Made by a program: the position numbers and the translations under genes
Source of the DNA: a virus
Virus record (IMG/VR): IMGVR_UViG_3300009285_001410
Location: 1 to 27,314 of that record
Length of the DNA stretch: 27,314 nucleotides
Reading direction: 5' to 3' (one strand)
Part shown: positions 2,794-24,727 of the stretch, piece after piece
Position numbering within the stretch: the stretch's first letter is position 1
How the letters are laid out: each line of letters begins with the position of its first letter
Notes under the pieces: model-generated
Database searches by the model: none
The model's input: only the letters and a program-made list of their open reading frames with translations
What the model was told of the DNA's origin: nothing

Positions 2794-3710
2794 CCGAAAC
2801 CCGAATCTGGAAGATGTTCAGGACCGATCAGTACTTCAGGCACTCTGGGGGCCATGCTGAGAGTCGGAGAGCCTGCATCATTCGCCTTTGCGATATCCAC
2901 TTGCGCCCTGTAGTCCCTATACACAGCCGTCGTATCGAAGTTTTTAGTCTCGAAATACTTCAGCTTGATCAAGGCCCTCATTACAGGATCAGGAAAGATG
3001 CAGGTATCGGTGTCTACGGTGTAAAGCTCCTTGCTCAACGCAGTCGCGCCGGTGGCTAAAATCCACCACTTGCTCTGATAGGTGTAGGAGAGATTTTCAT
3101 CATCCCCAAGAGGAGGCCAGATCTGGAAAAACCCTTGCTGCTGCCAATGCCTGATCCTCGGGCCTCTCGCGATATATCCCGACCTGAACCATTCGGACTG
3201 CTGAGGCGTCAGGGGCCCAATAAGGGACCAATGAGCGTCTTTGTCCCAATGAGTTCTATCCACCATCCGGTCGAAGTCAGAGGGGACCGCAAACCTGACC
3301 TTGGAGAACGTCAGCGTCACACCCGACCCGGAAGCAGTCGCTTCCCGATTCATTACAACCGTATTCCCAGAGGGAGCGGCGTTGATGAACGTATCTTGTG
3401 GAATTCCAGTTCCCTCGACCATGAAGGTGGTACCGAGAGAAGCTATGGAAGACATGCTTGTAAGACTCGTGCTTCCCGAGGTCGTGGTCCCGGTGTAGGC
3501 GAAGTAGGTCGCCTCGAAGTTGTACTGAGTCCTCCCGTACTGCCAGTCGAATTCTCGATTCAGCTCCCCGCCTGCAGAATTGATCAGAGCTAAAGTCTGC
3601 GTCACGTCCTGATTCGTGTTCCCAACGACCGTAGAGGGAGATCCATACCCGACAACCCCCATGCCTTGCAGGGTCGTTTGGAACAGCGAGAGGAGCGTGG
3701 AATTAGCCAA
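2790..3710 (-). CDS. Head-tail adaptor protein
   Basis: This 306-residue protein has the pattern of podovirus head-to-tail adaptor or head-completion proteins. The N-terminal helical segment (QTTLQGMGVVGYGSPSTVVG, then a helix around 'TLALINSAGGELNREFDWQ') matches the 'ALxxLNxAxxEIxxxxdWxxL' pattern typical of these proteins. A beta-rich Ser/Thr/Gly region follows (residues about 70-130), then RFAVPSDFDRMVDRTHWD and helices at the C-terminus. It lies directly before the stabilisation gene and overlaps it by four bases. The start is TTG inside the end of the upstream gene, with AGGGA six bases before it. A role joining portal and tail is inferred. Confidence 0.6.
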   Translation of the reverse strand: MANSTLLSLFQTTLQGMGVVGYGSPSTVVGNTNQDVTQTLALINSAGGELNREFDWQYGRTQYNFEATYFAYTGTTTSGSTSLTSMSSIASLGTTFMVEGTGIPQDTFINAAPSGNTVVMNREATASGSGVTLTFSKVRFAVPSDFDRMVDRTHWDKDAHWSLIGPLTPQQSEWFRSGYIARGPRIRHWQQQGFFQIWPPLGDDENLSYTYQSKWWILATGATALSKELYTVDTDTCIFPDPVMRALIKLKYFETKNFDTTAVYRDYRAQVDIAKANDAGSPTLSMAPRVPEVLIGPEHLPDSGFG

Positions 3711-4437
3711 GGGCTTCCCTGATCTTCTCCACGCCTAGCTTGTGGTGGGGCTTCTTGCCGAACTTTTCGACATACTGCGCAACCAACTTTGACTGGAGAA
3801 AAGCATCGCGAGGATGTGGACCGTCTTCCGGCACAGGGGCTTGACTCTCAGATACGCCCCCACTGTTGCGTTGCTCCGGGTTGGTTAACAATGACTCCAG
3901 TTTCGCAAGCCGTTCTTTCATATCGGCTAGCTCTTTGTCCTTCGCGGCCATCGCTTCCTTGACTTCCACCCCCATCCGGTTTCTAAGGGCTTGTCTCGCC
4001 TGCTCCCTAAGACCTAACCCCCCCATGCCCATTCTCTGAACTTGCTCGTCAGAAGCACCCGCAATCTGCTCCACGACGGAAAACCGCAGATACTTGAGCT
4101 CCCTGACCTGATCCGCCGTCAGAACATCCCACTCTTCGATCTTCCATCCCGGAATCCCGGTATCCTGGGAAATCATGCCTTCCTTCATCTGGAAGTACAG
4201 CCACTTGTTGGGCCATCTGGCTTTGTGGTCGTCCCTCACCGCAGTCTCGATGACGGAAGTCTTGTCTCCGGGTTTCTGAATCCGGACATAGGGCATCGCC
4301 GGCCCTTTCACTTTCTTTCCGGTCTCCATCGATTTATTCCAGTCTTCAGGTTCGTGCATGTAAAACTCCACGAACAGAAGATCATCCGGATTTACTGCTC
4401 CCACAAAGTCAGGGTTGTTCAGGTCAGACGCAAGCAT
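3703..4437 (-). CDS. Uncharacterised phage head-module protein with coiled coil
   Basis: I do not recognise a named family. The 244 residues show an N-terminal beta-rich part (VNPDDLLFVEFYMHEPEDW) and a middle part rich in aromatic residues. A charged helix follows, likely coiled coil, at about residues 145-190 (MAAKDKELADMKERLAKLES). A Pro/Gly/Ser-rich linker leads to a basic C-terminal helix. Proteins of similar build occur between capsid and adaptor genes in several podoviruses. It starts at an ATG with a strong AGGAG six bases upstream, one of the few genes here not coupled to its neighbour by overlap. Confidence 0.55.
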   Translation of the reverse strand: MLASDLNNPDFVGAVNPDDLLFVEFYMHEPEDWNKSMETGKKVKGPAMPYVRIQKPGDKTSVIETAVRDDHKARWPNKWLYFQMKEGMISQDTGIPGWKIEEWDVLTADQVRELKYLRFSVVEQIAGASDEQVQRMGMGGLGLREQARQALRNRMGVEVKEAMAAKDKELADMKERLAKLESLLTNPEQRNSGGVSESQAPVPEDGPHPRDAFLQSKLVAQYVEKFGKKPHHKLGVEKIREALG

Positions 4438-4446
4438 TCACGACTC

Positions 4447-5340
4447 CTATAAGTTGGACCAAAGTGTTTTGGCCTTCCACTTCCACTCTCTTGCAAACTG
4501 CTTGGCTCTGGGTTCCAGATCAGTCCTGTAGCCCATAGCAATGGCTAAATGCGGAATCAGTCCATCCCCGTGAACGTGAAGCGTGACGCCCTGGTTAGTC
4601 ATCATCGGGGCTAGAAACTTGAAATCCTCTGCCTGCTGCGCCATCCAGGGAGCGCATTCGAAAACCCGCTTGTTGCACAGGATCTGCATCCGCCTCTCGA
4701 CGGTCGTGCTCTTGCGTATGTGGGTATCGCCGTTGTGAAAAGAGCTGTCCGCCCCGTATAGATGAATCTCTCTGTAGCCTATAGGAACGGACAGAATCAT
4801 TGCCCTCGTAACTGCTGCGCTTCCGCCGATTACCATCGGCTCCATCTTCCCGCGCTTCTCCAACAGATCCTGAATATGCGTATCGCCGGCCGCGTGCCAG
4901 CAAACGATTCTCTGGCCCTTGAGAAGATCGAAAGACTCCGGAGGGCATCGCGACGCGAGCAGATACGTCACCTCGGGATGGGGAGTTACAAACTCCAGCA
5001 TCAACGGGTCTGCGTCGAAGCACATCATGTACTTCGGAATCACATCTCTCTCTAAAAGAAACTGGCAGGCGGCGTTGCACGCCATGATGTCGCCTGGAAA
5101 TTTCTTCAACTGCCGCCAATTCGCCTTTAGAGAAGGGCCGCTGCCGACTATGGCAACAGCCCCCGACTTGGTATCCATCAGATCGTTGAACGGGATGTAA
5201 TCCAGTCCAAGCGCATGCTCGATATTCCGAGCAATGTCCTCGTCCGTATTTGCCAGAGCTGAATGGATCTTCAGCGGCAGCCAGACAGGATGATCTGATG
5301 GTTTCAAGCTTAGGCTTCCTGGTTGATGCTTCTCGGCCAC
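4447..5340 (-). CDS. DUF115/MptE-like Rossmann protein, possible glycosyltransferase
   Basis: A 297-residue protein with the hallmarks of the DUF115 (6-hydroxymethylpterin pyrophosphokinase MptE-like) family. It has a glycine motif VGSGPSL at residues 65-71, an acidic strand CFDADP near 107-112, IGGSAAVTRA at about 171-180, and YGADSSFHNG from 195. The same domain type forms the core of Maf proteins, which transfer nonulosonic acids to flagellin, and it also occurs in phage structural operons. It sits between the decoration-like protein and the head genes, so a virion-glycosylation role is a reasonable inference but unproven. The GTG start at 5340 overlaps the upstream gene by 31 bases. A TTG at 5307, nine bases after AGGA and just past the upstream stop, is an equally good start. 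Confidence 0.6.
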   Translation of the reverse strand: MAEKHQPGSLSLKPSDHPVWLPLKIHSALANTDEDIARNIEHALGLDYIPFNDLMDTKSGAVAIVGSGPSLKANWRQLKKFPGDIMACNAACQFLLERDVIPKYMMCFDADPLMLEFVTPHPEVTYLLASRCPPESFDLLKGQRIVCWHAAGDTHIQDLLEKRGKMEPMVIGGSAAVTRAMILSVPIGYREIHLYGADSSFHNGDTHIRKSTTVERRMQILCNKRVFECAPWMAQQAEDFKFLAPMMTNQGVTLHVHGDGLIPHLAIAMGYRTDLEPRAKQFAREWKWKAKTLWSNL

Positions 5341-5816
5341 GTCACCATGCCCGTGGCGACAGAAGCCGTCGCGGTGCTCGCCGAGGTGGTAATGTAGATG
5401 CCAAGAGCAGTCGCACCCAGATTGCCAGCCGGCTGGCTGATGACCCTGCCGGTGCTCGCAAAGGCAAGACCGACGTTACTGCCAGCAGTGCAAGTCCCGG
5501 TACAGAGGATGTACAGGTTCCTGCCCTTCTTGGCGATCCATCCGAACTGACTCTGAGAGACCGTGTTTTGCACGAACCCGATGGAGTAGCCATTCGAGTT
5601 GATTGCGCTGCCGGTCAACATGGCAGTCGTAAGGGCAAAAGCGGTCCCGGCAGTATTGACGAGAACAGCATAGCCCGTGGTGAAAGTTCCAGAGCAGCAC
5701 ACGTACTGATGCTGCTGCTCGTCGGTTGCTTCAAGCGTGGTGCCAAGGGCGAACAGAGCGGTCGAATCGTCCGCAGTCAGGCTCGCACCGAGGAGACTGG
5801 AGGTAACAGTTGCCAT
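5310..5816 (-). CDS. Capsid decoration-like protein
   Basis: A 168-residue protein rich in Ala, Thr, Ser and Gly with alternating beta-strand pattern throughout, directly downstream of the major capsid gene. Size, position and composition fit capsid decoration or head-fibre proteins, though no diagnostic motif is visible. Several Cys residues occur in the middle (CCSGTF, CTGTCTAG), unusual for a virion protein and possibly disulphide or metal related. The ATG start has a strong AAGGAG upstream, as does the capsid gene, which suggests high expression. Confidence 0.6.
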   Translation of the reverse strand: MATVTSSLLGASLTADDSTALFALGTTLEATDEQQHQYVCCSGTFTTGYAVLVNTAGTAFALTTAMLTGSAINSNGYSIGFVQNTVSQSQFGWIAKKGRNLYILCTGTCTAGSNVGLAFASTGRVISQPAGNLGATALGIYITTSASTATASVATGMVTWPRSINQEA

Positions 5817-5827
5817 TTAATTTCTCC

Positions 5828-6862
5828 TTAAGCGATGAGCACGCCGCAGAACTGCGGGCCGCTGCTCGTCATGTTGCCGGCCCATCCGATGAGCTTCACG
5901 ATGGCGTCTTGGTTCACTGATTGACGCTCACCGCCGATGGGAACGAAGTTTCTCTCCTTGTGCGGACGCCAGAAAATGTAGTCCGTATTCAGAGCCCACA
6001 TATGAGCCGCTGTAGCGCCGCCCGTGGTCCCTGCCGTATTGACCGCATTGTTCACGCCGCCGCCCATCACGACAGTCGCTCCCATGCCGCCGCCGTAAAA
6101 AGCTAGCTCCGGACCGAAACCCGCACCGGCTTTTCCATCGCCCGAGGTCGTTTGAATCCTCTGAATGGCTTGCAACGAATTCACGTAGAACGCGAAGTAC
6201 GTCGCATCCCCGATCCACAGATCCGGCTTGTTCGACCCCCTGACACATCTCAGAGCTAGGGTCGTCATGTACTGCTGGATGTTCGCGGCAGAAACAGCAG
6301 CCCCTCCATCCGTCACTCCACGGTAGTACTGCGATCTCCAGAAGTTGTAAGTCGTTCTGGAAATCCCGCCGTAAGTGCCGGTAGTCGGATCATCCGGGAC
6401 CGCAAGCGCAAGACCGGTGACGTTCTTAGAGGCGTTGCCCGTACCGTCCTGGTAGAGGTCGTAATCCATCCGGTTCTGAAGCTGTGTTTCAGCAACCTTT
6501 ACTCTCCCTTCCATGAGGTCGATGATCTGTTCCTTGCCGGCGTTCTGAAGCATCTCAAGACCCGACATCGAAACAGCACCCGCGTACTGCTTGATGGAAA
6601 ACTCAGCCGAGCTGATCGGGCTGTTCGGGGCGATATTGATCACCTCGTAACCCGAGTAGCTGTTGGCGTTGATCGTGGCCGAGTCCGTATACATGACCTC
6701 TTCCATGATCACGTTTCCGCCGGAGAACGTTCTGACGTTCCCCTTTGCCTTCACCTTTCGGAGAAGGGCGTTGTTGTTCGTAACGTTGTCCGCCAGCTCG
6801 CCGGAACGATTCTGAATCGTGGTAGCGATGATGTCGGTGTACGAACTATTGGCAAAAGGCAT
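5828..6862 (-). CDS. Major capsid protein
   Basis: This 344-residue protein follows the scaffold gene and has the layout of HK97-fold capsid proteins. A helical N-terminus (SYTDIIATTIQNRSGELADN) is followed by an extended-loop-like beta region (FSGGNVIMEEVMY), then a helix with MEGRVKVAETQLQNRMDYDL. Further on come WIGDATYFAFYVNSL and a C-terminal strand region containing WRPHKERNFVPIGG. I believe it is the capsid subunit from size, order (portal, scaffold, capsid) and these features. AAGGAGC precedes the ATG, a good ribosome-binding site matching the need for hundreds of copies per virion. A gap of 20 bases separates it from the scaffold stop. Confidence 0.85.
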   Translation of the reverse strand: MPFANSSYTDIIATTIQNRSGELADNVTNNNALLRKVKAKGNVRTFSGGNVIMEEVMYTDSATINANSYSGYEVINIAPNSPISSAEFSIKQYAGAVSMSGLEMLQNAGKEQIIDLMEGRVKVAETQLQNRMDYDLYQDGTGNASKNVTGLALAVPDDPTTGTYGGISRTTYNFWRSQYYRGVTDGGAAVSAANIQQYMTTLALRCVRGSNKPDLWIGDATYFAFYVNSLQAIQRIQTTSGDGKAGAGFGPELAFYGGGMGATVVMGGGVNNAVNTAGTTGGATAAHMWALNTDYIFWRPHKERNFVPIGGERQSVNQDAIVKLIGWAGNMTSSGPQFCGVLIA

Positions 6863-11960: not shown

Positions 11961-12677
11961 CTATCTCCTAAGCAACACCGACAAGTAATCAGGTAGAGCT
12001 AAAGTGTCCGCAAGCCTCTCAGACGTAGGACGCCAGCGCCCGAAAGCCGCGTCCCATACCGCAGCCTTGACTACCGTCATCCCGGCCTGACGCACAATCT
12101 CATTCACCTCACGCATCGCATAAATACGATGGCACGTGCCGAATCGCTCCGTTATCTCTATGCTCGCTACCGGAAGCGACAGAACAGCCAAGCCTCCAGG
12201 TTTTAAAACTCTCCTGATCTCCCTCATCATCCGATAGTCCCCATCCTCGGATTCACCATCCCCGTAACGCCCAAGACCTACGTGGCAAATCACACAAGAG
12301 CTGGACACCGCATCGAAGGACTCATCATCAAACGGCAGATCGCTTGCATCCCCGAACACCCACCTCAACCTATCAGTCGGGGGTTTACGTACGTCTACGT
12401 AGGTAACACTCCAACCCTCATCCTGTAATTCGAAGGCTTCAAATAGCGGCGACCCGACAACCAGGCATCTACCATTACCTTTCAACTCACCCACCGCAAA
12501 ATCAGCAGAACCGTTGTACCAATGCTGCCAATGCGGAATCTCCAGAGGCACCAGCACACCATCGATCAACTGCTCAATCCGGGGTTTATGAGTCTTCCCG
12601 TAATCACGCTCGGCAAACCACTGCTCATCCACCGTCCGGTTGTGCTTGGAGATAAGCGAGACATTTTCCCTTCTCAC
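11961..12677 (-). CDS. DUF268-like SAM-dependent methyltransferase
   Basis: A 238-residue class I methyltransferase-like protein. CLVVGSPLFEAFELQDEGW (about residues 70-88) takes the place of motif I, with a weak Gly pattern. VTYVDVR is the acidic strand of motif II, and FGDASDLPFDDESFDAVSSS is motif IV. VICHVGLGRYGDGES, then REIRRVLKPGGLAVLSLPV, closes the core. The 'HIGLGRYGD..D..GD' element with 'LKPGG' is typical of DUF268-type proteins, which often sit in glycan gene clusters. A sugar or glycan methyl transfer is possible. The start is GTG, sharing one base with the terminase stop (TAGTG), with GGGAG just upstream. It interrupts the usual terminase-portal pair. Confidence 0.65.
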   Translation of the reverse strand: MRRENVSLISKHNRTVDEQWFAERDYGKTHKPRIEQLIDGVLVPLEIPHWQHWYNGSADFAVGELKGNGRCLVVGSPLFEAFELQDEGWSVTYVDVRKPPTDRLRWVFGDASDLPFDDESFDAVSSSCVICHVGLGRYGDGESEDGDYRMMREIRRVLKPGGLAVLSLPVASIEITERFGTCHRIYAMREVNEIVRQAGMTVVKAAVWDAAFGRWRPTSERLADTLALPDYLSVLLRR

Positions 12678-15115: not shown

Positions 15116-15316
15116 CTACGTAGACTTCTTCACTCTGGCCTTCTGGTGCATCTCAACCAAGCGAACCGCCCTGAGACCCAGAGGTCTTTGACCAGATTTC
15201 CAATTGCTCACTTGCCGATCGCTGACTCCTAAGGTTTCGGCAATACGCTCAAGACCTATACCAATGTTCTGCAGTTCCTGGATCAGCCGCGCCCAGTATT
15301 CTTGTTCTTCTGTCAC
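15116..15316 (-). CDS. Small helix-turn-helix protein
   Basis: A 66-residue protein with a clear helix-turn-helix: ERIAETLGVSDRQVSNWKSG at about residues 23-42, as in Cro/CI-type or transposase-type DNA-binding domains ('iA..lgvs.rqVsnW..G'). The remainder is short flanking helices, with a basic C-terminus (KARVKKST). The start is GTG in a GTGA overlap with the hisF-like gene, preceded by AGGAAGG. It might regulate the sugar genes or the late genes; this is a guess from position. It marks the end of the sugar cassette. Confidence 0.6.
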   Translation of the reverse strand: MTEEQEYWARLIQELQNIGIGLERIAETLGVSDRQVSNWKSGQRPLGLRAVRLVEMHQKARVKKST

Positions 15317-16044
15317 AGCGCCTTCCTGATCTCCCCGAAAGTAAGCTTCCCGTAATGCAGGACGCTCGCCATGGCCACCGCATCAGCCTTTCCCTCCCCG
15401 AGTACCTCCCTGATGTGCTCGACGCAGCCAGCGCCTCCACAAGCCGTTACAGGCACCGAAACATGAGGGGCTATCGCTTTGACAAGCTCGACATCGAAGC
15501 CTTTCCGCGTCCCCTCCTGGTCAATGGACGTAAGGAGGATTTCCCCCGCCCCAAGCTCAACCGCTTCATGCGCCCATTCGACTGCATCCTTGCCCGTTTT
15601 TTCCCGGCCGTTATCGGTGAATGCTTCCCAGCCCACCTCCAGCCGCCTTTTGGCTTCGATTGATACAACAATGCATTGCGACCCGTAATAGTCCGCGCAT
15701 TCCTTGATAAGACCTGGATTACGGATAGCGGCGGTGTTGATTGCAACCTTGTCTGCACCAGACTCCAGTAGTCTTCGTACATCTGCTCGCGATTTGATAC
15801 CCCCGCCCACAGTAACGGGAATAAATACGTCCTCTGTTGTTTCTGCGAGTAAGGACCGGAGCTGATTTCTACCGTATAGCGTTGCAACGGTATCGATGTA
15901 GAGAAGTTCATCCGCACCTCCCTCTGCATACTTCCGTGCGAGGTCTGAAGGCTTCCCGACAACCCTGAGTCCCTCGAAATTGATTCCCTTGACGACGTTA
16001 GGCCCCTTGATATCCAAACGGGCGATTAGCCTAAGAAGGGACAC
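15313..16044 (-). CDS. hisF: HisF-like (beta/alpha)8-barrel protein of surface-sugar clusters
   Basis: A 243-residue TIM-barrel protein of the HisF family (imidazole glycerol phosphate synthase cyclase subunit). It shows [19 protein letters not shown] at the start, [20 protein letters not shown] (about 76-95) and [10 protein letters not shown] near residue 208, both phosphate-binding elements. D11 is conserved. The second catalytic position, Asp130 in the enzymes studied, is Glu here (VVSIEAKR, E130). No HisH glutaminase partner is in this window. In sugar clusters HisF-like proteins work with a PseA/WbpG-like amidotransferase, which this window has at 19632, so a role in forming an acetamidino group is inferred. 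The start is GTG, overlapping the NeuB-like gene by 14 bases. Confidence 0.75.
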
Positions 16045-16804
16045 GCCACGCCTTTCTCAACCCTTCCTCGCACGCCAATACTCTCTTTTCAGGGCTCCCC
16101 AAGGCGTACTCGACTTCCATAATTCCTAGCCTCATCGCCTTGAACTCCCTCGGCTCGATAGAGGCTTTGTGGTCCGGCCCTCGCTGCCTTCTATCAAGCG
16201 TCAGGTGCTTTTCAATGACCGTCGCCCCCCTCGCTACCGCCGCTATGGGAACCGTGATCCCAGATGTGTGATCCGACAACCCAACCGGATATCCGAACTT
16301 TCGCAGCGTATCCATGGCTCTGAGATTCACGTCCTCTAATCTGCATGGATAAGACGATGTGCAATGAAGCAGTGTGACGTTCGCCGCCAAGGTATCCAAA
16401 GCTCGTTCAATATCCTTTAAATCGCTCATCCCTGTAGATAGAATGACCGGAAGACCTGTTTGATAAGCCCCATAGAGAAGATCGAAGTTCCCCAAGCAAC
16501 CTGACGCAATCTTGATCCTTTGGACCTTGAGCTTTACCAGGAATTCCAAAGACTCGACATCGAACGGCGTGCACATGAATTCGATGCCGATGGCCTTGCA
16601 ATACGCCGCTATGTCAATCATCTGGATTTGAGATAGCTCCAGATGCTTAATCCTGTCGTCTTTCCAAAGCTTCCGACTGCTGAACAATTGAAACTTACAG
16701 GCATCTGCGCCGGCATCCTTTGCAGCGTCGGCAAGCTTTAGAGCGGTGCCGAACTCCCCGTTATGGCAAACCCCGGCTTCAGCAATCAGAAAGGTTCTAG
16801 ACAT
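16031..16804 (-). CDS. neuB: NeuB-like nonulosonic acid synthase, catalytic barrel only
   Basis: Sialic-acid-type synthases condense phosphoenolpyruvate with an N-acetylated hexosamine to make a nine-carbon acid. This 257-residue protein has the family's barrel: FLIAEAGVCHNGEFGTALKL at the start, DACKFQLF, IEFMCTPFD, RIKIASGCLGNFDLL, VILSTGM, CTSSYPCRLEDVNL, and VIEKHLTLDRRQRGPDHKAS. The last holds H200 and H212, matching the metal-binding His residues of NeuB. Cellular enzymes have about 340 residues and a C-terminal antifreeze-like (SAF) domain. Here the frame stops right after the barrel, so that domain is absent. This domain contributes to the active site in the solved enzymes, so its loss is notable. 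The ATG overlaps the neuC stop by eight bases. The exact sugar (sialic, legionaminic or other) cannot be told. Confidence 0.85.
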   Translation of the reverse strand: MSRTFLIAEAGVCHNGEFGTALKLADAAKDAGADACKFQLFSSRKLWKDDRIKHLELSQIQMIDIAAYCKAIGIEFMCTPFDVESLEFLVKLKVQRIKIASGCLGNFDLLYGAYQTGLPVILSTGMSDLKDIERALDTLAANVTLLHCTSSYPCRLEDVNLRAMDTLRKFGYPVGLSDHTSGITVPIAAVARGATVIEKHLTLDRRQRGPDHKASIEPREFKAMRLGIMEVEYALGSPEKRVLACEEGLRKAWRVPS

Positions 16805-17609
16805 TTGTGTACTTCAGGATTGTGGCGATTCGTTGACTGGCGTTCCCATCTCCCCATGGGATTGTTCTTCCCTTCTGTCTCTTGCCGATCATGCGCGTTT
16901 TGATCCCAAGCTCTGGAGCTTCGTAGAGCATGGCTGAAGAGTTACCAATGAACTCTTCGCAGTTCGCCATGACGCTTAGAAATTGCGCGTGGCTGAACTC
17001 CAAAGTACCAGGGATGCGCTCGCTTCCCCGGTCTGGATTCGGCTTGATCCAGATAGCACTGCGCCCCGCAATCGCTTCCTCTACTGCCTTGAGGTCTACG
17101 GTGTCGTCTATCGTCTCCGGGTAATACGCCACCAAGACGTAAGGCTTCTGGATGCATGGAGTCATCTTCCGCCACGGCCCATGTCTTATGTAGTCCACGC
17201 CAGGATTACCGACAAGATGGACGTTCTTCATCCCCATATGAGTAAGGCGGGCCATTGCAGATGTTGAAGTGACGAAGTGAAGAGACGCCATCCTAGAAAT
17301 ACAGTCCCTCATGGCGTCGTCGTAGGAGCCCTCGGTTACATCCCCTCCCGCTATATGAGCAATTGGCACTCGCGCCAAATGACAAGCTGTAGCCGCAGCA
17401 AGGATTTCGTACCTATCCCCAAGCATCAAAACGACATCAGGACGGCCTTCCGCAATCTGGCTCTTGGTCCATAGAAACGCATCATCGAATCTGCACCCCT
17501 TCAGACTCAGCCGATTTACCGAGAAGAACGGATCTTCGGACAGGACTTTGGACGGCCACTCCAACAGCCCTTCATCCGCTCTAGACCCAATGACGATGCA
17601 GACTTTCAT
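16797..17609 (-). CDS. neuC: NeuC/LegG-like UDP-sugar 2-epimerase (hydrolysing), short form
   Basis: Hydrolysing 2-epimerases turn UDP-GlcNAc or its diamino derivative into free ManNAc-type sugars, the substrate of NeuB. The 270 residues start with VCIVIGSRADEG, then have VVLMLGDRYEILAAATACHL (59-78), IAHIAGGDVTEGSYDDAMRD (83-102), HLVGNPGVDYI, and NSSAMLYEAPELGIKT, all characteristic. The family norm is about 370-390 residues; here the first domain is shortened (GDR at 64-66, normally nearer 85-95) and other loops are short. The usual 'RHxItKM' element reads RDCISRM, with the His missing. ATG start in an ATGA overlap with the NeuA-like gene. Confidence 0.85.
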   Translation of the reverse strand: MKVCIVIGSRADEGLLEWPSKVLSEDPFFSVNRLSLKGCRFDDAFLWTKSQIAEGRPDVVLMLGDRYEILAAATACHLARVPIAHIAGGDVTEGSYDDAMRDCISRMASLHFVTSTSAMARLTHMGMKNVHLVGNPGVDYIRHGPWRKMTPCIQKPYVLVAYYPETIDDTVDLKAVEEAIAGRSAIWIKPNPDRGSERIPGTLEFSHAQFLSVMANCEEFIGNSSAMLYEAPELGIKTRMIGKRQKGRTIPWGDGNASQRIATILKYTNV

Positions 17610-18106
17610 TTCAGAAAATCAGCCTCTTCGTTGATATCCAAACTCCTCTCTTCGGGCATGACGTACTTCATCAATCCGGCATGGCTGAAGTCGTGCTTTG
17701 CGATCCACTCTGCTTTAGCAACATAGACCGCTCCGTTTGTCCTCCATGTCCCATTGCTGTATGAGATACAACCGTCCCCCATCTGGGCCCGCTCGATACA
17801 GGCGTCGATATCCTCTGCTGTGCGCAGCGGGCTGGTAGGCTGGAGCAGGACTACCCAATCGTGCGGAGCCTGCTCCAAGTGGTAGCGCAGCACGTCTTCA
17901 CTGGCTGCGTCGTCTGTGCATAGCTCCGGTGGGCGGTCTTGGTCAAGAGACACCTTTACATTGTCGATATACTTAGATGCAGCGGCATGCTCTACGCTCC
18001 ACATGACCAGCGGCTTTCCTCGGTAGTCGCGGAAGTTCTTCCAAGGCACGCGCTTGGAGCCTGAGCGCGCAGGAATCACTGCCAATACTGTTTTACCGTT
18101 GATCAT
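17606..18106 (-). CDS. neuA: NeuA-like CMP-nonulosonate cytidylyltransferase, short form
   Basis: It would activate a nonulosonic acid with CTP. The 166 residues show the nucleotide-binding motif VLAVIPARSGSKRVPWKNF (7-25), then GKPLVMWS, LLQPTSPLRTAEDID (87-101), and SLDINEEADF (155-164), whose Asp residues match the metal-binding site. Cellular enzymes are about 220-230 residues. A visible deletion lies after VKVSLDQ (51-57): the usual segment between 'VSTDdeeIa' and 'RPxEL' is missing, so RPPEL follows directly. The first ATG overlaps the end of the glycosyltransferase gene by 14 bases. It is followed by NeuC and NeuB, the classic order for this pathway. Confidence 0.85.
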   Translation of the reverse strand: MINGKTVLAVIPARSGSKRVPWKNFRDYRGKPLVMWSVEHAAASKYIDNVKVSLDQDRPPELCTDDAASEDVLRYHLEQAPHDWVVLLQPTSPLRTAEDIDACIERAQMGDGCISYSNGTWRTNGAVYVAKAEWIAKHDFSHAGLMKYVMPEERSLDINEEADFLK

Positions 18107-19244
18107 ATTGCTCTAGGAACTTCGCTCCGATCCGCATCCTGATCTCCCCATGCAGGGGCTTGGCGTTGTAGGCACTCATCGAACGCGGGAATAGCTTCCA
18201 GAATTCGCGCTGCCTTATATACTCCCAATCGTCGTAGAACGGATATCCGCCACAACGTACTTCCATCTCCCCAACTACGTCCCTGATCTCCTCGGGCGTG
18301 TTATCGACCAGCGTTATCCCGGCCTCTGTGAATTTCTCGCTCGACATGAACTGCCCCGCCCCGCTCTCGTAGATTTCCTTCAGCGACATTCTTTTTCCAT
18401 CTTTGTAGTGGTGCTTCCAGATCGCCAGAGAGCGTTTGTTGAAGGTCGATAGGTATTCAATCGGAACGTAGTTCACGTAGCAGACAGGTCTGCGAAAGAT
18501 CACTGGAATTGCATCTATCCCCGTCCCGTTCGATATCGCGAACTCGCACTTGGCTCCCAAGTACACATCCATGAACTCGGAGCGCATGCCGTTGGTGGCG
18601 TAGTCAATGATCCACCTTGACTCTGCTCGCTTGGCAACCTTCGCGCCCATCCTGAAGACGTAATAACCGCGCTTGACAAGCTCCTCGGCCACAAGCGGGT
18701 AAGTGTCAATGTCCGAGTCTCGGTAGCCGTGATAAGTAAGATCAGGCAGGTAAGCAGAATCCCGCACGATGAGACATACCCACTTCGCATTTTCTGGAAT
18801 GCCCCACTCTGCCAACGTCTTGCGGCCTAATCTTTCCTCGGCCTCGGTAAACTCTAGATGAGGCCCCTGCTTTTCAAAGAGGTTGTGAATGTCGCGGTCC
18901 AACTGTTCCGAATTACATACATGCTTCTCCCATCCGCGAAACATGCGATTGACGAGAATGAGGAGCCTTGTAAATCTCGTGGGGTCTACCAAGATTTCTC
19001 GCCCGATCATCTTCGCCAGTTGCTTGTTCGATACCTTGTTTCTGTGCGTCCAGATGTCGAAGGACTTGGGATGTAAGCCCGCGTCCTTCTCGCAGAGATA
19101 GCATTCTGTATTGCCTGCCAGGTGGCCTATGCGCTCGCTCCAGAATTCTCCGAAGCGGATAAGAACACCGCAGCGAGCGAGCAGGCGGACTGAACCGACG
19201 ATCAGCAACGCAAGTGGAATGAGGAGGAGACGGACGAACTTCAA
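18093..19244 (-). CDS. TIGR04372-type glycosyltransferase
   Basis: A 383-residue protein beginning with a basic/hydrophobic segment (FVRLLLIPLALLIVGSVRLL), a membrane anchor or signal-like helix. It then shows RIGHLAGNTECYLCEKDAGL (38-57), CLIVRDSAYL, YHGYRDSDIDTYPLVAEEL, MGAKVAK, and EFMDVYLGAKCEFAISNGTG followed by DAIPVIFRRPVCYVNYVP. These match what I know of the TIGR04372 family of putative glycosyltransferases from polysaccharide clusters. It is the only clear transferase in the cassette and so the best candidate to use the CMP- or NDP-sugar. The start is TTG in a TTGA overlap with the HTH-like gene; its ribosome-binding site is weak. Confidence 0.75.
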   Translation of the reverse strand: MKFVRLLLIPLALLIVGSVRLLARCGVLIRFGEFWSERIGHLAGNTECYLCEKDAGLHPKSFDIWTHRNKVSNKQLAKMIGREILVDPTRFTRLLILVNRMFRGWEKHVCNSEQLDRDIHNLFEKQGPHLEFTEAEERLGRKTLAEWGIPENAKWVCLIVRDSAYLPDLTYHGYRDSDIDTYPLVAEELVKRGYYVFRMGAKVAKRAESRWIIDYATNGMRSEFMDVYLGAKCEFAISNGTGIDAIPVIFRRPVCYVNYVPIEYLSTFNKRSLAIWKHHYKDGKRMSLKEIYESGAGQFMSSEKFTEAGITLVDNTPEEIRDVVGEMEVRCGGYPFYDDWEYIRQREFWKLFPRSMSAYNAKPLHGEIRMRIGAKFLEQYDQR

Positions 19245-19600
19245 TGGGACGGGCCTTTACTCTCCCACATCGCAATAAGACGCTCCTGATTGCTCTCTAT
19301 CCGATCCATTTGCGTCTGAAGGTCTTTCATCACGTCTATGGCCCCAACGGTGGCCACGAATCTCGTCTTTTCACCAATCGCTTTAAGCCTCTCTTGCTTT
19401 TGGGAAATTTCTACACTCACCCTTTCCTTTGCGGCTAATACCTCAGGCTCATTCAGCAACATTCTCGGCACGCCCCTAGCTCCAATGGGACCATCGTGAA
19501 CTGTAATTCCAAGTCTTTCAAAATTTCCCCTACCAATTCCACGAGGATTTAGACCAAGAATATTCGCGGCTTCTTTCGCATCTATGAACTTCATCTTCAT
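19241..19600 (-). CDS. Small HTH-like protein with coiled coil
   Basis: This 119-residue protein starts MKMKFIDAKEAANILGLNPR, the beginning of a MerR/excisionase-like helix-turn-helix ('fid.keAA.iLGl...'). It continues with GNFERLGITVHDG and PRMLLNEPEV and ends in helices with a heptad-like pattern (ISQKQERLKAIGEKTR and LQTQMDRIESNQERL). I do not know a named family. It stands out as a non-enzyme within the sugar genes. It has its own strong ribosome-binding site (GGAGAG, seven bases) and a 31-base gap upstream, unlike its coupled neighbours. It may be a later insertion or a regulator. Confidence 0.55.
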   Translation of the reverse strand: MKMKFIDAKEAANILGLNPRGIGRGNFERLGITVHDGPIGARGVPRMLLNEPEVLAAKERVSVEISQKQERLKAIGEKTRFVATVGAIDVMKDLQTQMDRIESNQERLIAMWESKGPSH

Positions 19601-19631
19601 TGCATTCTCTCCAAAGTAGTTTGGATTACAA

Positions 19632-20708
19632 TTAAGACACCACGCACTTCAACTTGTCGCCATCCCACACTTCCGGTGACTTCCAACTCTCAATGATCAG
19701 CAGCGCCTGCGCTTCTGTAATGCCCATGTAGGCGCAGGCTTCGGAGAAATACTTCTTCGGAAACTCGTCGTCGAAGCGGTGAACTAGCGCTACGCCTTCC
19801 TCGCGCGTGATCTTGCCGTCGCGGATTTCGTGCGCCGTGTCACTCGTACAACGCCCGATGCCAAACTTGATATATGCCAAGTAGTAATGCAAACCGTCGA
19901 GTCTGTCGTCGAGACTTGCATACTTGGAATACGTGCCCTCAGTTCGCTCTGGATTAGGGCTAAATCCTGTATGCTCGGAGCAGTAGTAGAAATTCTCCTG
20001 CGGGTCCCACTTTTTGTAGTAGCTGAAGAAGTGGATTTCCCCTTCGAAGCTTTGCGGCCCCCGGAATGGCTCAAGGTCTTTTTGGCTGATGCCATGCTCT
20101 CTCCAGAACTCCGGCGGCTTACCGGAAAAGTAATGAGCGTCGTGGTCCTCAATCTTTCGCATTGCTCGCGGGTCTTTCACCGCTCCACCGTATTCAGCTT
20201 CTCCATCCTCCCCGTACATGATCAGAGGAACGCGATACCTGACCGCCATCTGTAAGGGGAAATTCGTTTGCCCATAGATGAATGGTTGAAACGGATCGCC
20301 CATGTGCTCAAAGGCCAAGCGCGTGAGCTTGCTGGTAGTAACACCGTTCGGCCTGCCCTGGATCACGTCGAAACCTGAAGCGACAAAGGCATCGAGGTTC
20401 TTCCGTCCTATCTCAGTAGGCAGAAGCGGAGCCCACGTCACACAAAGCGGCGTCATGCCGTACTTGGTCTTCAGTTGATGAGCGACAAACCCGCCGTCCT
20501 TCCCGCCGCTACAGGGAACAATGACATCGAATTCGCCATTACCCTTACGGTGCTTATCGCAGAGTGCGATCAACTCGCGCTCCCTTGCGGCCCAATCCGT
20601 ATAAGCCTTGCGCTCTGCGAATCGGCAGGCAGAGCAAACGCCCTCGTCATCGAATGTAATTCTCGGCCGCATGGAGCTGATCGTGCATCTGGTGCAGAAG
20701 CGGATCAC
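19632..20708 (-). CDS. N-acetyl sugar amidotransferase, PseA/WbpG-like
   Basis: The family (PseA, WbpG) uses a PP-loop ATPase fold to place an amidino nitrogen on an N-acetyl sugar, as in acetamidino forms of pseudaminic acid or ManNAc-type uronic acid. The 358 residues fit the usual full length. Cysteines at 5, 8, 25 and 28 (CTRC and CSAC) form the family's N-terminal pair of CxxC motifs. The PP-loop is PCSGGKDGG at 65-73 (usual SGGKDS, with Gly for the final Ser). Later parts include MYGEDGEAEYGG (164-175) and the C-terminal AYIKFGIGRCTSD. It pairs naturally with the hisF-like gene at 15313. Start GTG in a GTGA overlap with the upstream gene, which argues it is co-translated with the thiamine-diphosphate enzyme. 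Confidence 0.85.
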   Translation of the reverse strand: MIRFCTRCTISSMRPRITFDDEGVCSACRFAERKAYTDWAARERELIALCDKHRKGNGEFDVIVPCSGGKDGGFVAHQLKTKYGMTPLCVTWAPLLPTEIGRKNLDAFVASGFDVIQGRPNGVTTSKLTRLAFEHMGDPFQPFIYGQTNFPLQMAVRYRVPLIMYGEDGEAEYGGAVKDPRAMRKIEDHDAHYFSGKPPEFWREHGISQKDLEPFRGPQSFEGEIHFFSYYKKWDPQENFYYCSEHTGFSPNPERTEGTYSKYASLDDRLDGLHYYLAYIKFGIGRCTSDTAHEIRDGKITREEGVALVHRFDDEFPKKYFSEACAYMGITEAQALLIIESWKSPEVWDGDKLKCVVS

Positions 20709-21223
20709 TTGCGGTACTCCGATGCGTACTCAATAAGCAACGTGCTTGCCTCACGGTTGAGAGCGTCTCTATATGCCGGCATGATCGATTCAACGTGAGT
20801 CAACGGCTGAACGTGGACCGTGCGCAGCATCTTCGCAAAAGCTTCTGTGTGATCCTGGCAATGCTGCGGCCCTGGATTCAGGGGCTCTGTACTTCCTACC
20901 GCCGTCCTGATGATCACCTTCGGTCTATAGCTAGACATCAGCGGAAGCTTGTCCAAGTGATTGACTAGTTGGTTGGCGGCTAGGAGAAGAAAGTCGAAGC
21001 GCGGATACACGCTCACGACTAACTGACCTGTCAGAGCAAGGCCAGTAGAAAAGCCCATCTGGAAGTCCTCAGCGACAGGCATTTCTATACGCTGCTCCAT
21101 CGGCACACCGGAGAACGAGGGATGCATCGCCTGCCCGTCGTAGCGGATGGATTGCCCGAGGAACAACGCCCCCTGCTTGGCAAGGAACGTCATGGCGTTG
21201 GTTAGTTCTAGAAAGTAATCCAC
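20705..21223 (-). CDS. Thiamine-diphosphate enzyme, E1 beta-like subunit (Pyr domain only)
   Basis: This 172-residue protein matches the first domain of E1 beta subunits and transketolase-like enzymes, which binds the pyrimidine ring of thiamine diphosphate. It has LFLGQSIRYDGQAMHP, RIEMPVAEDFQMGFSTGLAL (45-64; E52 matches the conserved Glu that activates the cofactor) and FDFLLLAANQLVNHLDKLP. Normal E1 beta chains have about 325 residues with a C-terminal domain, absent here. The GTG at 21223 is chosen because it begins the family-like sequence and overlaps the alpha-like gene by 16 bases. An in-frame upstream start at 21340 would lie deep inside that gene. Substrate unknown. Confidence 0.75.
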   Translation of the reverse strand: MDYFLELTNAMTFLAKQGALFLGQSIRYDGQAMHPSFSGVPMEQRIEMPVAEDFQMGFSTGLALTGQLVVSVYPRFDFLLLAANQLVNHLDKLPLMSSYRPKVIIRTAVGSTEPLNPGPQHCQDHTEAFAKMLRTVHVQPLTHVESIMPAYRDALNREASTLLIEYASEYRK

Positions 21224-21792
21224 TTGCCTATCCCGCAATGCGGGTGAGTGCGCTCGTATGCGTAGCGCAGAACCTTCGGCGGCGTGAATGGCTCCTGCTC
21301 CAACCCCCAAGCCTCTTGCGTAGGTGTATTCGTAGAGCACCCGTTATCCTCAATCACAAACTCTATCGGTAAATTGTGACCCTCTGCATACTCGTATGCC
21401 TCGCAATAAGACCCTGTGCAAGCCGCCATATCTCCTACAAAGCACCAGACGCGATCACTCGTCCCCTTCAACCCCGCCGCTACGCCGCAGGCAATCGATG
21501 AGATCCCGCCAACAATTGCGCTGGTAAGGAACCGATGCTCCGGAAAGTTCACGTTCATGCTAGGCCCGGTGAGAATGTGGGCCTTGAGTTTTGCCGGAGG
21601 CACGCCGTGCAAGAGCGCGTGATAATGCGAGCGCCAAGTCGAAAAGACCCAATCCGTTCTCTTGATGTCCTTGAAGATTTCTATCAACTGCTCCTCATTC
21701 CCACCGGATAGATGCACCGGCCCATGTATCTCTCCGCGCTCGAAACACTTCGCAATGTCCTCCTCAAAAGCGATCAATTCTTCAGCCGTCAC
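21208..21792 (-). CDS. Thiamine-diphosphate enzyme, E1 alpha-like subunit (PP domain)
   Basis: A 194-residue protein like the E1 alpha chain of 2-oxoacid dehydrogenases, which binds the diphosphate of thiamine diphosphate. It shows HGPVHLSGGNEEQLIEIF, VFSTWRSHYHALLHGV (49-64, the 'STYRgHgh.la.Gv' motif), AIVGGISSIACGVAAGLK, and the cofactor motif from FVGDMAACTGSY (118-129) to N150 in EDNGCSTNTPT. GDM replaces the common GDG. E1 alpha chains have about 320-360 residues; this one ends soon after the cofactor motif. With the 172-residue partner it would make a minimal PP + Pyr enzyme. No E2 or E3 gene is present, so a simple decarboxylase or carboligase is more likely than a dehydrogenase complex. 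GTG start, 11-base overlap with the SIS gene. Confidence 0.8.
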   Translation of the reverse strand: MTAEELIAFEEDIAKCFERGEIHGPVHLSGGNEEQLIEIFKDIKRTDWVFSTWRSHYHALLHGVPPAKLKAHILTGPSMNVNFPEHRFLTSAIVGGISSIACGVAAGLKGTSDRVWCFVGDMAACTGSYCEAYEYAEGHNLPIEFVIEDNGCSTNTPTQEAWGLEQEPFTPPKVLRYAYERTHPHCGIGKWITF

Positions 21793-22198
21793 GCAACGCC
21801 CTCATCAAGTCGTGTCCAAGCTTTACCTGCGCCTCTTCAGATGCCTGCATGTTCATCGTTTTTAGATAATCGGTAATCAACACGCACTCCATGCCGATAA
21901 GCTTCGCTGCCGCTATGGCGTTGAGAATGTTCTTCGATGTCCCGCTACCGGACAGAGCGATCAACAAATCCCCAGGCTCTCCATGAACCGCGAGCCAGTC
22001 GGCAAAGACCAATTCGTAATCCCGGTCGTTCGCTATCCTGGTTAACGAGGAAGGATTCAGCGTGTGCGCCCTGACCCCTACACTCTCCAAGTCGTTCTGG
22101 ATGTGCATTGCGTTGGCGAAACTTCCGCCATTGCCCACGAGGTAGACCCGTTTTGCTTTTCTAATAGCTTCAACGATTGAGATAGTCGAGTAGCTCAT
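21782..22198 (-). CDS. SIS-domain sugar isomerase, GmhA-like, short form
   Basis: GmhA converts sedoheptulose 7-phosphate to D-glycero-D-manno-heptose 7-phosphate. The 138 residues hold VYLVGNGGSFANAMHIQNDL (18-37), like the GmhA motif 'GNGGSaadA.H...dl', and LIALSGSGTSKNILNAIAAA (79-98), the SIS phosphate-binding motif. Family members have about 190 residues, so the N-terminal helix and C-terminal part are cut short and the catalytic His of GmhA is not clearly matched. The neighbouring kinase and nucleotidyltransferase of the heptose route support the heptose reading; other phosphosugar isomerases remain possible. The ATG overlaps the kinase gene by 29 bases. Confidence 0.75.
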   Translation of the reverse strand: MSYSTISIVEAIRKAKRVYLVGNGGSFANAMHIQNDLESVGVRAHTLNPSSLTRIANDRDYELVFADWLAVHGEPGDLLIALSGSGTSKNILNAIAAAKLIGMECVLITDYLKTMNMQASEEAQVKLGHDLMRALRDG

Positions 22199-23003
22199 TT
22201 TTGGTTATTGGCTTTCTATGCCCAACGGTCTGCGCCTTCAGGGCTCCTGCCGCATTTCCAATGCGCATAAGATCGGCTAGTGAAGCTTCCTCGGCCATGC
22301 AGGCCGTCACCGCGAAGAACGCATCCCCAGCCCCCATCGTATCGACCACCCGATCTGTAAACGCCGGAACCTTGACAAATCCCTCTTTCTCCGACCAGCC
22401 GATAGACCCATCCCTCCCGAGCGTCACAACGACCATTCCGGCAATCCTTGCCAAGCTGTCCAAAGACAGCCGGATATCACCATCCCTGTTCTGGGTCGCC
22501 AGCCGCGCCTCGGGCTCGTCCACGCACAGGTAATCGGCATTGGGGTATTTGGTCGCTAGGTTGAAACCGTAATTGCCGGAATTGGTCTGCACGTTCACCG
22601 CCAAGAACTTGGACTCCCTGCAAAGCTTCTCCACCACCGCAGGGGTCATCATCCCGTGGCCATAATCAGTGACGATCACCGCATCGTAGCTTTCAAGAGC
22701 AGGCCACATCATCAGCGCATGATCGACATTACCCCCGTAGACCTCGAATAGCTTTCTGTGATGCGACGCCTCAAGGTATCGCTCTTTACGAACCTCACAC
22801 GTCGAGAAGATGTGAACGCCGGCAACGAAATCGCGCGCGTGAGCAGCAGCCGCAACAACCCCACCCTCGAATACCTCGGTGTCCTGGTGCTCAATACAGA
22901 CAATGGCTTCCTTTAGCGGCCTCCCCAAAAGCTTCCCGTAGTGGTACACATCCTGAATGCGCTCCCCAACGAACAACACCCGCTTGTTAGAATCAGGCAG
23001 CAA
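22170..23003 (-). CDS. PfkB-family sugar kinase, HldE N-terminal-domain-like
   Basis: HldE's kinase domain phosphorylates heptose 7-phosphate at carbon 1. This 277-residue protein has the ribokinase-fold signatures: RVLFVGERIQDVYHYG at the start, GGVVAAAAHARDF (47-59), VIVTDYGHGMMT (109-120), NADYLCVDEPEA, VVVTLGRDGS, and VVDTMGAGDAFFA (219-231) with the GAGD anion-hole motif and catalytic D227. In cellular HldE it is fused ahead of the nucleotidyltransferase; here the two are separate genes in reversed order. The TTG at 23003 is used because GAGGG lies upstream and the frame overlaps the previous gene by 11 bases. A GTG at 22979 is an alternative that would trim the protein by eight residues. 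Confidence 0.8.
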   Translation of the reverse strand: MLPDSNKRVLFVGERIQDVYHYGKLLGRPLKEAIVCIEHQDTEVFEGGVVAAAAHARDFVAGVHIFSTCEVRKERYLEASHHRKLFEVYGGNVDHALMMWPALESYDAVIVTDYGHGMMTPAVVEKLCRESKFLAVNVQTNSGNYGFNLATKYPNADYLCVDEPEARLATQNRDGDIRLSLDSLARIAGMVVVTLGRDGSIGWSEKEGFVKVPAFTDRVVDTMGAGDAFFAVTACMAEEASLADLMRIGNAAGALKAQTVGHRKPITKNELLDYLNR

Positions 23004-23400
23004 GACGCATCACCCTCAATATCGCGTCGGTCGCGCTTAACTTTGCGGACGTGGTGAACCTCAGTTCCGCGCCGACCTCCCGGCATGCTCTTTCCACTTC
23101 CTCTGTCCACCTGTCCCCGTTTGCGTAGTCTCTGCCCTTAACGAAGATCGCCGGCCGCACCAGCCTGATAGCCTCCATCGCAGAGGCTACGGGTACGATC
23201 TCATCCACGCACTCCAGCTCTATGAGCAAATCGTGCCGGTCCCACCACTTATAGATGGGTCTACCGGGTCCCTTGTTCACATGCTCATCCAGGGTAAGAG
23301 ACACAACGAGCTTGTCGCCCATAGCCCTCGCTTCTTTGAGATGCCTAACGTGCCCGACGTGGAGCAGATCGAAGCAGCCGTTGGCCAAGACTACTTTCAC
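22993..23400 (-). CDS. HldE C-terminal-domain-like nucleotidyltransferase
   Basis: A 135-residue cytidylyltransferase-fold protein that would add a nucleotide to heptose 1-phosphate. It shows VVLANGCFDLLHVGHVRHLK with the HVGH motif at 14-17, GPGRPIYKWWDRHDLLIELE (44-63), the 'RP......R...l..l..VD' element, FVKGRDY (86-92) and TTSAKLSATDAI, close to the ending of RfaE2-type enzymes (SxxSTSxII). Length fits a stand-alone domain. Whether the activated sugar is ADP-, CDP- or GDP-linked cannot be read here. GTG start, GTGA overlap with the radical SAM gene. Confidence 0.85.
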   Translation of the reverse strand: MKVVLANGCFDLLHVGHVRHLKEARAMGDKLVVSLTLDEHVNKGPGRPIYKWWDRHDLLIELECVDEIVPVASAMEAIRLVRPAIFVKGRDYANGDRWTEEVERACREVGAELRFTTSAKLSATDAILRVMRLAA

Positions 23401-24545
23401 AGGAACCCCAAATGCGGCGGCGGTGGAGTCGTCGGCAAAGCCTTGCCGGCATGAACGTAATCGAAGAGAACCTTGTTGGTGTTCGTCTGTAGACAGTTCG
23501 GGCCGCAGCGAGATCTTGGATCAAATTCATCGGATGCGAGGTAGCGAATGACCTCCCAATACCTGTCGCTCTGCCAAATATCCTTGAATCGTTGCTCGCA
23601 GATGTTCCCGATGTGGAAAGCCTTATAGCGCTCGTTGAAGAGAAACCCGCAGGGAGCTATCAATCCGTTCCCCGACATCTGCAATATGAAGGGAGGGCCG
23701 TAACACTTGGAATACTCCCGCTTTCCGTCATTGGATATCCGGCTCCACTTCACCACTACCCGGAATTCGTCATCCCCCATTTCTTCTATCGTGCGGAATG
23801 TTTCGTGCAGCTTCTCGTATTTCGTGTAATCGATCCCGAGCTGCCCATCCACATCATCGGCGCAGTGCTTCACGATTGCGTAATCAGGCCGCAGCTTGGA
23901 TGCTAGTTCTGCGAACGGGATTAGCTCAGGCTCGTACTTCGGCTCGCACACAAGCTGCATGTTGATCGTGACTCCGAGTTTGTCGCGGCGCTTGATCTCC
24001 ATTGCGTCCTTGATGTTCTGCACCACCACATCGAACCACTCCGGTTTCACGCCCATGATGCGGGAATAGCCTTCCCTAGTCCCACCGGAGAAGTTGAACC
24101 GCAGGTAGGACAGATGCGGCAGGATGCGCTCCAGCATCTGGCGCTTCAGAACCTTGCCGTTGGTCCCGATGCCGATTTGCAGTCCTACTTTAGCCCCGTG
24201 CTCGATGGACTCGGCGTAGAACGGAACGATGCTCGATTCCCCGTCGCTGATAAGCGAAACGCCCTTTACCCCGATCTCGGCTGCATCAGAGAGGAACTGA
24301 AGCGCGATCTCTCGGGTAATTTCTTGACCCTGGCTCGCCTGCATCTGGGCGTAGCAGAACTCGCAGGCGTAATTACATTTGCGCGTCCAAGCCACGTCCA
24401 TGGTGATGGGCGCAATCTTCTCTCCCCTTTGCCATGCGGCGATGCGCTCCGGGTACCAGCCAACCTTTGTTGAATCCAATTGGTAATCGTAGATGCTTGG
24501 CTTTTCTACGATGTGATCGACAAGTTCCGGTAATGAGCTGCTCAT
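23397..24545 (-). CDS. Radical SAM protein with SPASM-like C-terminus
   Basis: A 382-residue radical SAM enzyme. The iron-sulphur motif CNYACEFC has Cys 57, 61 and 64 (CxxxCxxC), followed by YAQ. SLISDGESSIVPFY (97-110) is the glycine/SAM-contact region. Cys at 281, 299, 316, 347 and 351 suggest one or two further clusters, as in SPASM proteins, with SGNGLIAPCGFLF and HIGNICEQRFKDIW resembling the SPASM motif. No B12-binding domain is seen. No peptide precursor is near, so a sugar or nucleotide substrate is more likely than a RiPP; radical SAM enzymes that epimerise, dehydrate or deaminate sugars are known. The substrate is not known. ATG in an ATGA overlap; the GTG of the next gene overlaps its stop. 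Confidence 0.8.
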   Translation of the reverse strand: MSSSLPELVDHIVEKPSIYDYQLDSTKVGWYPERIAAWQRGEKIAPITMDVAWTRKCNYACEFCYAQMQASQGQEITREIALQFLSDAAEIGVKGVSLISDGESSIVPFYAESIEHGAKVGLQIGIGTNGKVLKRQMLERILPHLSYLRFNFSGGTREGYSRIMGVKPEWFDVVVQNIKDAMEIKRRDKLGVTINMQLVCEPKYEPELIPFAELASKLRPDYAIVKHCADDVDGQLGIDYTKYEKLHETFRTIEEMGDDEFRVVVKWSRISNDGKREYSKCYGPPFILQMSGNGLIAPCGFLFNERYKAFHIGNICEQRFKDIWQSDRYWEVIRYLASDEFDPRSRCGPNCLQTNTNKVLFDYVHAGKALPTTPPPPHLGFL

Positions 24546-24727
24546 AGACGATCCCTTTCGGCTGGAGTCATTTTGATTCTGAGTTTTGAGTCGTCGGCCA
24601 TGCGATCTTTAAAAACCCGACAGTCCAGCCCTGTAAGGGCGCGTAGGTGCTTCTCGAAATCGAGCAAAGCCTTGCCTTGGGCTTCGTTCGACACGCCTTC
24701 ATCGAACTTGACAATGACCTTGATCAT
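24542..24727 (-). CDS. Small protein of the sugar cassette, function unknown
   Basis: A 61-residue protein: MIKVIVKFDEGVSNEAQGKA, a helix with LLDFEKHLRALTGLDCRVF, then DDSKLRIKMTPAERDRL. It looks like a small alpha/beta protein with strand, helix and strand. I do not recognise a family. It is tightly coupled by ATGA overlaps to the aminotransferase gene before it and to the radical SAM gene after it, so it is probably translated. It may help one of them or be an independent accessory protein. Confidence 0.55.
   Translation of the reverse strand: MIKVIVKFDEGVSNEAQGKALLDFEKHLRALTGLDCRVFKDRMADDSKLRIKMTPAERDRL

Follow-up and report, generated by a model that had tools for sequence, protein, structure and literature searches.

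A Maf-like DUF115 protein encoded behind the capsid decoration gene of an uncultivated phage and its possible role in virion glycosylation

Glycosylation of phage virions is already known from mycobacteriophages, whose enzymes, to our knowledge, are not Maf-like and involve no nonulosonic acid (NulO) pathway. Phage-encoded transferases modify the capsid proteins of Che8 and Rita (Freeman et al. 2023, as cited in PMC11256854). Bacterial Maf proteins consist of three domains, with PF01973 forming the sialyltransferase-like centre (PMC11339370), and act on flagellin before its export (PMC4065374). Our search of open-licence papers retrieved no report of Maf-like or NulO-based glycosylation of phage virions, and the papers found for DUF115/MptE-like proteins in connection with phages contained nothing on virions.

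The DNA analysed here (hereafter the window) is a single IMG/VR record with a length of 27,314 bases. It encodes a single-domain protein of 297 amino acids on the minus strand (4447-5340), the strand being unspecified in the first-pass annotation. This reading frame is intact, and a plus-strand reading of the same interval was ruled out by nine in-frame stops. The protein matches PF01973 (MptE-like, formerly DUF115) with 61.6 bits against a Pfam gathering cut-off of 34.6 (E=1e-16), and thus the similarity goes beyond the motifs to which the first-pass annotation had confined it; no other Pfam family was matched at E up to 0.1. A chance match is excluded, since PF01973 exceeds the cut-off in 24 of the 50 examined records with a related capsid protein, where a single copy occupies the slot behind the capsid gene. 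Across the relatives, the invariant residues include S70, L95, G188, G196, D198, S199, and Q236, and D109 and H149 are nearly invariant. Looking for a counterpart of the catalytic histidine base of the GT42 and GT29 sialyltransferases brought up the conserved S70, D109, H149, D198, S199, and Q236. The GTG start codon at 5340 creates a 31-nt overlap with the preceding gene. A TTG near 5307, preceded by a GGAAG-like site, could serve as the start instead, as neither homology nor confident modelling extends to the first ~20 residues.

An AlphaFold2 model built from 29 relatives (mean pLDDT 89.5, pTM 0.85) supports the Maf-related enzyme class suspected from the letters alone. In the proposed comparison with known structures, Foldseek returned the Maf protein 5MU5 as the best PDB match (E=4e-9, 270 columns, TM 0.60 on the query), followed by the archaeal MptE 8SD5 (1e-6) and then by mammalian GT29 and bacterial GT42 sialyltransferases. 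A profile search (hmmsearch) gave the same order, with 5MU5 at E=1e-17, MptE at 3.5e-6, and the GT42 enzyme CstII only weakly (E=0.008) in a match running through the motifs GxGPSLK and LGYxxIxLxGxD. With PF01973 as its sole Pfam family and this weak CstII match, the protein does not belong to GT42 or GT29 by sequence. In the model, the 297 residues comprise the Maf core and a C-terminal helix only, and both the N- and the C-terminal domain of Maf are missing; the NCBIfam model for PseD yields 14.6 bits at a cut-off of 670. Because only the central domain is present, the protein is Maf-like and not a Maf, and the best reading of the model is a stripped-down Maf-like transferase with a predicted sialyltransferase fold.

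The gene is part of the head module, which on the minus strand reads terminase (TerL), methyltransferase, portal, small genes, scaffold, major capsid protein (MCP), a 168-aa protein, DUF115, phrog_20268, and tail genes. The MCP (5828-6862, phrog_9953, E=1.4e-91) is 45% identical to the capsid proteins of Mx8 and BUCT555, and the slot is closed by the conserved phrog_20268 gene of unknown function (3703-4437, hereafter p3703). For the 168-aa protein (5310-5816, minus strand), the AlphaFold2 model is beta-rich (pLDDT 77), and its top 17 PDB matches in Foldseek are all chains of phage capsid structures, including the phi29 head-fibre base and the capsid-stabilising protein of TW1, with modest E-values (2e-3 to 0.16) and probabilities mostly of 0.94-1.00. 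Its homologue in Mx8 is annotated as "major virion structural protein". Together with the fold matches, this indicates that the protein is most likely a capsid decoration (cement) protein, so that the DUF115 gene does directly follow a decoration-type gene, as initially annotated, which itself follows the MCP gene. Serine and threonine make up 26% of this candidate acceptor, the highest share among the window proteins scanned, an argument weakened by the equally Ser/Thr-rich short decoration proteins of phages without DUF115. The SAM-methyltransferase-like gene between terminase and portal (11961-12677) is present only in the window and in the related contig G034 among the loci fetched, and is possibly a partner of the sugar pathway described below.

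A capsid-based scan yielded 80 viral loci sharing the order portal-scaffold-MCP-decoration-[slot]-p3703-tail. The arrangement MCP-decoration-DUF115 is kept even in a second clade (clade 2), whose MCP is only ~25% identical to that of the window and whose DUF115 protein is homologous to the one studied here (hhalign E=1e-8; PF01973 E=2e-22). The tie between DUF115 and the capsid module is therefore well supported by synteny across deep lineages. DUF115-free loci lack the slot, and their decoration protein is usually a short form of 97-103 aa. A long decoration protein (≥140 aa) was found in all 41 DUF115-positive tree rows vs. nine of the 35 DUF115-free rows (Fisher 5e-13, uncorrected for kinship), but this link loses its significance when phylogeny is taken into account: the DUF115 label changes ~9 times on the capsid tree, and ~2.6 of six independent contrasts agree while none oppose (p 0.25).

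Variability of the slot is also found in the form of fusions, in which DUF115 is joined to FkbM and other methyltransferases or, in four loci (L042:6943-9249, L059:6442-7845, L069:10897-12333, and L072:11014-13026), to an N-terminal GT8-type domain (6MW5, E=3e-5; glycosyltransferase phrog_1962, E=4e-31), with a methyltransferase domain also present in L042 and L072. Slot neighbours include weak GT4 and GT8 matches and, in L056, adjacent methyltransferases. A small HNH-like ORF (~151-171 aa, recognised by eye) lies between the capsid and decoration genes in L017 (8879-9334), L019, L021, L022, L037, and L077. Among cultured phages that share this capsid protein (Mx8, BUCT555, and ppBjS10J-1), none has DUF115 in the slot. 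Bacterial genomes, screened for a prophage or host assignment, contributed two MAG contigs whose capsid protein is distant, neither of them with DUF115. Taken together, the DUF115 rows were too diverse for their alignment to serve as a scan query. Among 50,697 public phage records (tblastn, E up to 1e-3), the individual DUF115 queries from the window, G094, L221, and L056 had no match, and the L017 fusion matched one record with its methyltransferase part only.

The homologues of neuA, neuB, and neuC reported by the first-pass annotation were confirmed as parts of a larger cassette (15313-25933), with NeuB and NeuC being short and below the NCBIfam equivalog cut-offs. On the minus strand, its genes encode a HisF/WbuZ-type amidation partner (15313-16044; TIGR00735 E=2e-84, TIGR03572 E=2e-81), a NeuB-type NulO synthase of 257 aa of which only the catalytic part is matched (16031-16804; TIGR03569 E=1.4e-86), a NeuC/LegG-type UDP-sugar 2-epimerase of 270 aa (16797-17609; TIGR03568 E=8e-53), a CMP-NulO synthetase of the NeuA/PseF type with 166 aa (17606-18106; TIGR03584 E=1e-16, PF02348 E=3e-14), a second transferase of the TIGR04372 glycosyltransferase family (18093-19244; E=1e-59, over cut-off), a WbuX-type N-acetyl sugar amidotransferase (19632-20708; TIGR03573 E=8e-96, over cut-off), a compact DegT-type aminotransferase of 205 aa (24724-25341; PF01041 E=1e-16), and a NeuD/PglD-type acetyltransferase (25322-25933; TIGR03570 E=8e-43, just below cut-off). 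NeuA and DegT are similarly short in G034, and the short NulO enzymes thus look like conserved compact versions rather than products of decay. By its gene content, the cassette looks more like a neuraminic/legionaminic type with amidation. It further includes a stretch (20705-23400) conserved in G034 with a split TPP-dependent E1-like enzyme, a SIS isomerase, a PfkB kinase, and a small nucleotidyltransferase, which resemble a second sugar pathway, of the NDP-heptose type or another. A radical SAM/SPASM protein (23397-24545), also found in G034, scores against the PADLOC viperin models (pVip) at E=5e-14 but stays far below the NCBIfam viperin cut-off.

One relative, G034, is a near-complete contig of 45.5 kb with both ends running into the same capsid gene. 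It retains the whole cassette at 39-74% identity and a DUF115 protein at 64%. A search for neuB returned 71 viral contigs, of which 50 were examined and seven belong to this capsid lineage. DUF115 exceeds the cut-off in six of these seven vs. two of the 43 others. Three starting points, namely neuB, the clade's own MCP, and the clade's own DUF115, were used to sample clade 2, and in all members with both sites visible, neuB lies ~5-9 kb from the MCP gene on the upstream side and DUF115 is present. A CMP-sugar synthetase is encoded in 11 of the 14 neuB-positive records of the lineage, and among the 50 capsid-relative records only in G034, itself neuB-positive. One record, G096, carries a pseudaminic-type set of PseB-like protein, class III aminotransferase, PseH, NeuB, and cytidylyltransferase. 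Besides the window, TIGR04372 occurs in one (G034) and GT2 in none of the 14 neuB-positive lineage records, so that, of the transferase-type proteins found, DUF115 alone is common to the neuB-positive phages of the lineage.

The converse does not hold. As the initial annotation had cautioned, DUF115 is also present in phages without such cassettes, namely in 23 of 48 neuB-free capsid-relative records (fragments included, near-complete genomes among them), and these phages must rely on a donor from the host or on another sugar. Tested inside the lineage, neuB and DUF115 are linked at p=0.056 uncorrected and at 0.008 when clade 2 is included, with the rows being related to each other. The survey of co-occurrence called for at the outset thus shows a link that is real but one-sided: within the lineage neuB goes along with DUF115, but DUF115 often occurs without neuB and is rare in other neuB-carrying viruses. 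A control set chosen by DNA methylase yielded only two loci and was not usable. In G078, the sole neuB-positive record of the lineage to lack PF01973, a 304-aa protein directly behind the capsid gene (L145:3692-4606) appeared DUF115-like by eye; profile comparison gave no support, and it was not counted. The G094 phage (L202) has two DUF115 genes (16375-17283 and 18032-18859) flanking a p3703-like gene as well as a PseB-like/NeuB/WbuX/HisF cassette. Another DUF115 phage, represented by L004 and L010 of the same contig and with no neuB found, encodes a WbuX relative (66% identity) between tail genes at L010:14115.

From the domain family, the predicted fold, the decoration-type fold of the neighbour, the synteny, and the co-occurrence computed here, we infer virion glycosylation as the best explanation, and with it a donor, an acceptor, a timing, and a biological role (particle masking). 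We assign a probability of about 0.6 to the reading that a cytoplasmic Maf-like enzyme glycosylates a virion protein, most likely the decoration protein, via a CMP-activated donor, here probably the NulO of the cassette; this phage and far relatives with the same arrangement and sugar-making genes would thereby probably coat their own particles with sialic-acid-like sugars. The late-expressed enzyme would take up the CMP-activated NulO in the cytoplasm during infection and transfer the sugar onto Ser/Thr residues of a newly made virion protein, with the decoration protein as the likeliest acceptor and the capsid protein as second choice. Transfer would take place before or during head assembly, before the decoration protein docks on the capsid, and would parallel the action of Maf on flagellin before export. 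The donor in this phage would probably come from its own neuABC/neuD/DegT/WbuX/HisF cassette, and relatives without a cassette would have to draw on the host, possibly for CMP-Kdo, or use a different sugar. Kdo is a natural donor candidate because a bacterial Maf has been reported to accept CMP-Kdo (PMC11339370). In mycobacteriophages, capsid glycans reportedly shield the particle from antibodies (PMC11256854), which makes shielding a possible benefit here; masking in other settings is just as possible.

Before 2023, the known phage transferases mostly had the host surface or DNA as their target. Both targets are named in PMC12619734. The enzyme could modify a host surface glycan or protein, such as LPS or flagellin, to exclude other phages, a reading favoured by the Maf core fold and by the action of Maf itself on flagellin. 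We consider this unlikely, as the gene is locked into the late structural module behind the decoration gene over very large evolutionary distances, the flagellin-related C-terminal domain of Maf is missing, and there is no membrane-protein context; no flagellin was seen in the window. Glycosylation of DNA was set aside, as no gene for hypermodified-base synthesis was seen. Slightly less probable than a host target is that DUF115 glycosylates the virion with a sugar unrelated to the neu genes, and that the cassette feeds TIGR04372, which has its own target. TIGR04372 lies inside the cassette in both the window and G034 and could be the NulO user in these two phages, DUF115 is common without neuB, and the GT8-type and methyltransferase fusions in the slot suggest that other sugars are usable. 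Yet the other neuB-positive phages of the lineage lack TIGR04372, all but one of them have DUF115 where the slot is visible, and CMP-NulO is the type of donor used by the Maf and sialyltransferase folds, all of which speaks against this reading.

The Pfam family takes its name from MptE, and 8SD5 is second to Maf in both the structural and the profile search, so that a pterin diphosphokinase, a nucleotide/folate enzyme placed next to capsid genes incidentally, also has to be weighed. This reading is very improbable: Maf scores far better in the profile search, the window showed no folate gene, and the slot partners and co-occurring genes encode glycosyltransferases, methyltransferases, and NulO enzymes.

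Extending virion glycosylation from this phage to its relatives leads to a wider proposal, for which we see slightly less than even odds: that an uncultivated, widespread lineage covers its capsids with legionaminic- or pseudaminic-type sugars through a transferase that derives from Maf and specifically serves an extended decoration protein, with several members bringing a whole CMP-sugar pathway and the virion mimicking bacterial or eukaryotic surface glycans. If true, NulO-bearing particles would take virion glycosylation outside the actinobacterial phages, demonstrate that an enzyme for flagellin-type protein glycosylation is reused on capsids, and account for the presence of sugar pathways of up to about 10 kb in small phages. 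The DUF115 enzyme and the adjoining decoration protein form a concrete pair for future experiments, and a single-domain Maf-like enzyme working on a small beta-structured protein would be a useful tool for protein O-sialylation.

The closest described systems include the Maf enzymes that glycosylate flagellin (M. magneticum 5MU5, C. botulinum CbMaf, and C. jejuni Maf4), which share with the phage protein the PF01973 core, the predicted fold, a genome that also encodes CMP-nonulosonic-acid genes, and, if the decoration protein is the acceptor, an adjacent acceptor gene. In contrast to the three-domain Maf, the phage protein has one domain of about 300 aa and is phage-encoded in a head-gene module without flagellin. 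The GT42 and GT29 sialyltransferases (CstII, ST8SiaIII) are alike in fold, and CstII also shares the two motifs of the profile match, but sequence similarity is low and these enzymes act on glycans and not directly on protein. MptE, the archaeal 6-hydroxymethylpterin diphosphokinase (8SD5), belongs to the same Pfam family and has a related fold, but is a weaker match than Maf, and the window offers no folate context. The mycobacteriophages Che8 and Rita resemble the proposed system in the way it would work, as phage-encoded transferases modify capsid proteins. In the related mycobacteriophage Maravista the glycosyltransferases are located near the 3' end of the genome (PMC11256854), whereas the DUF115 gene of the window lies behind the capsid genes.
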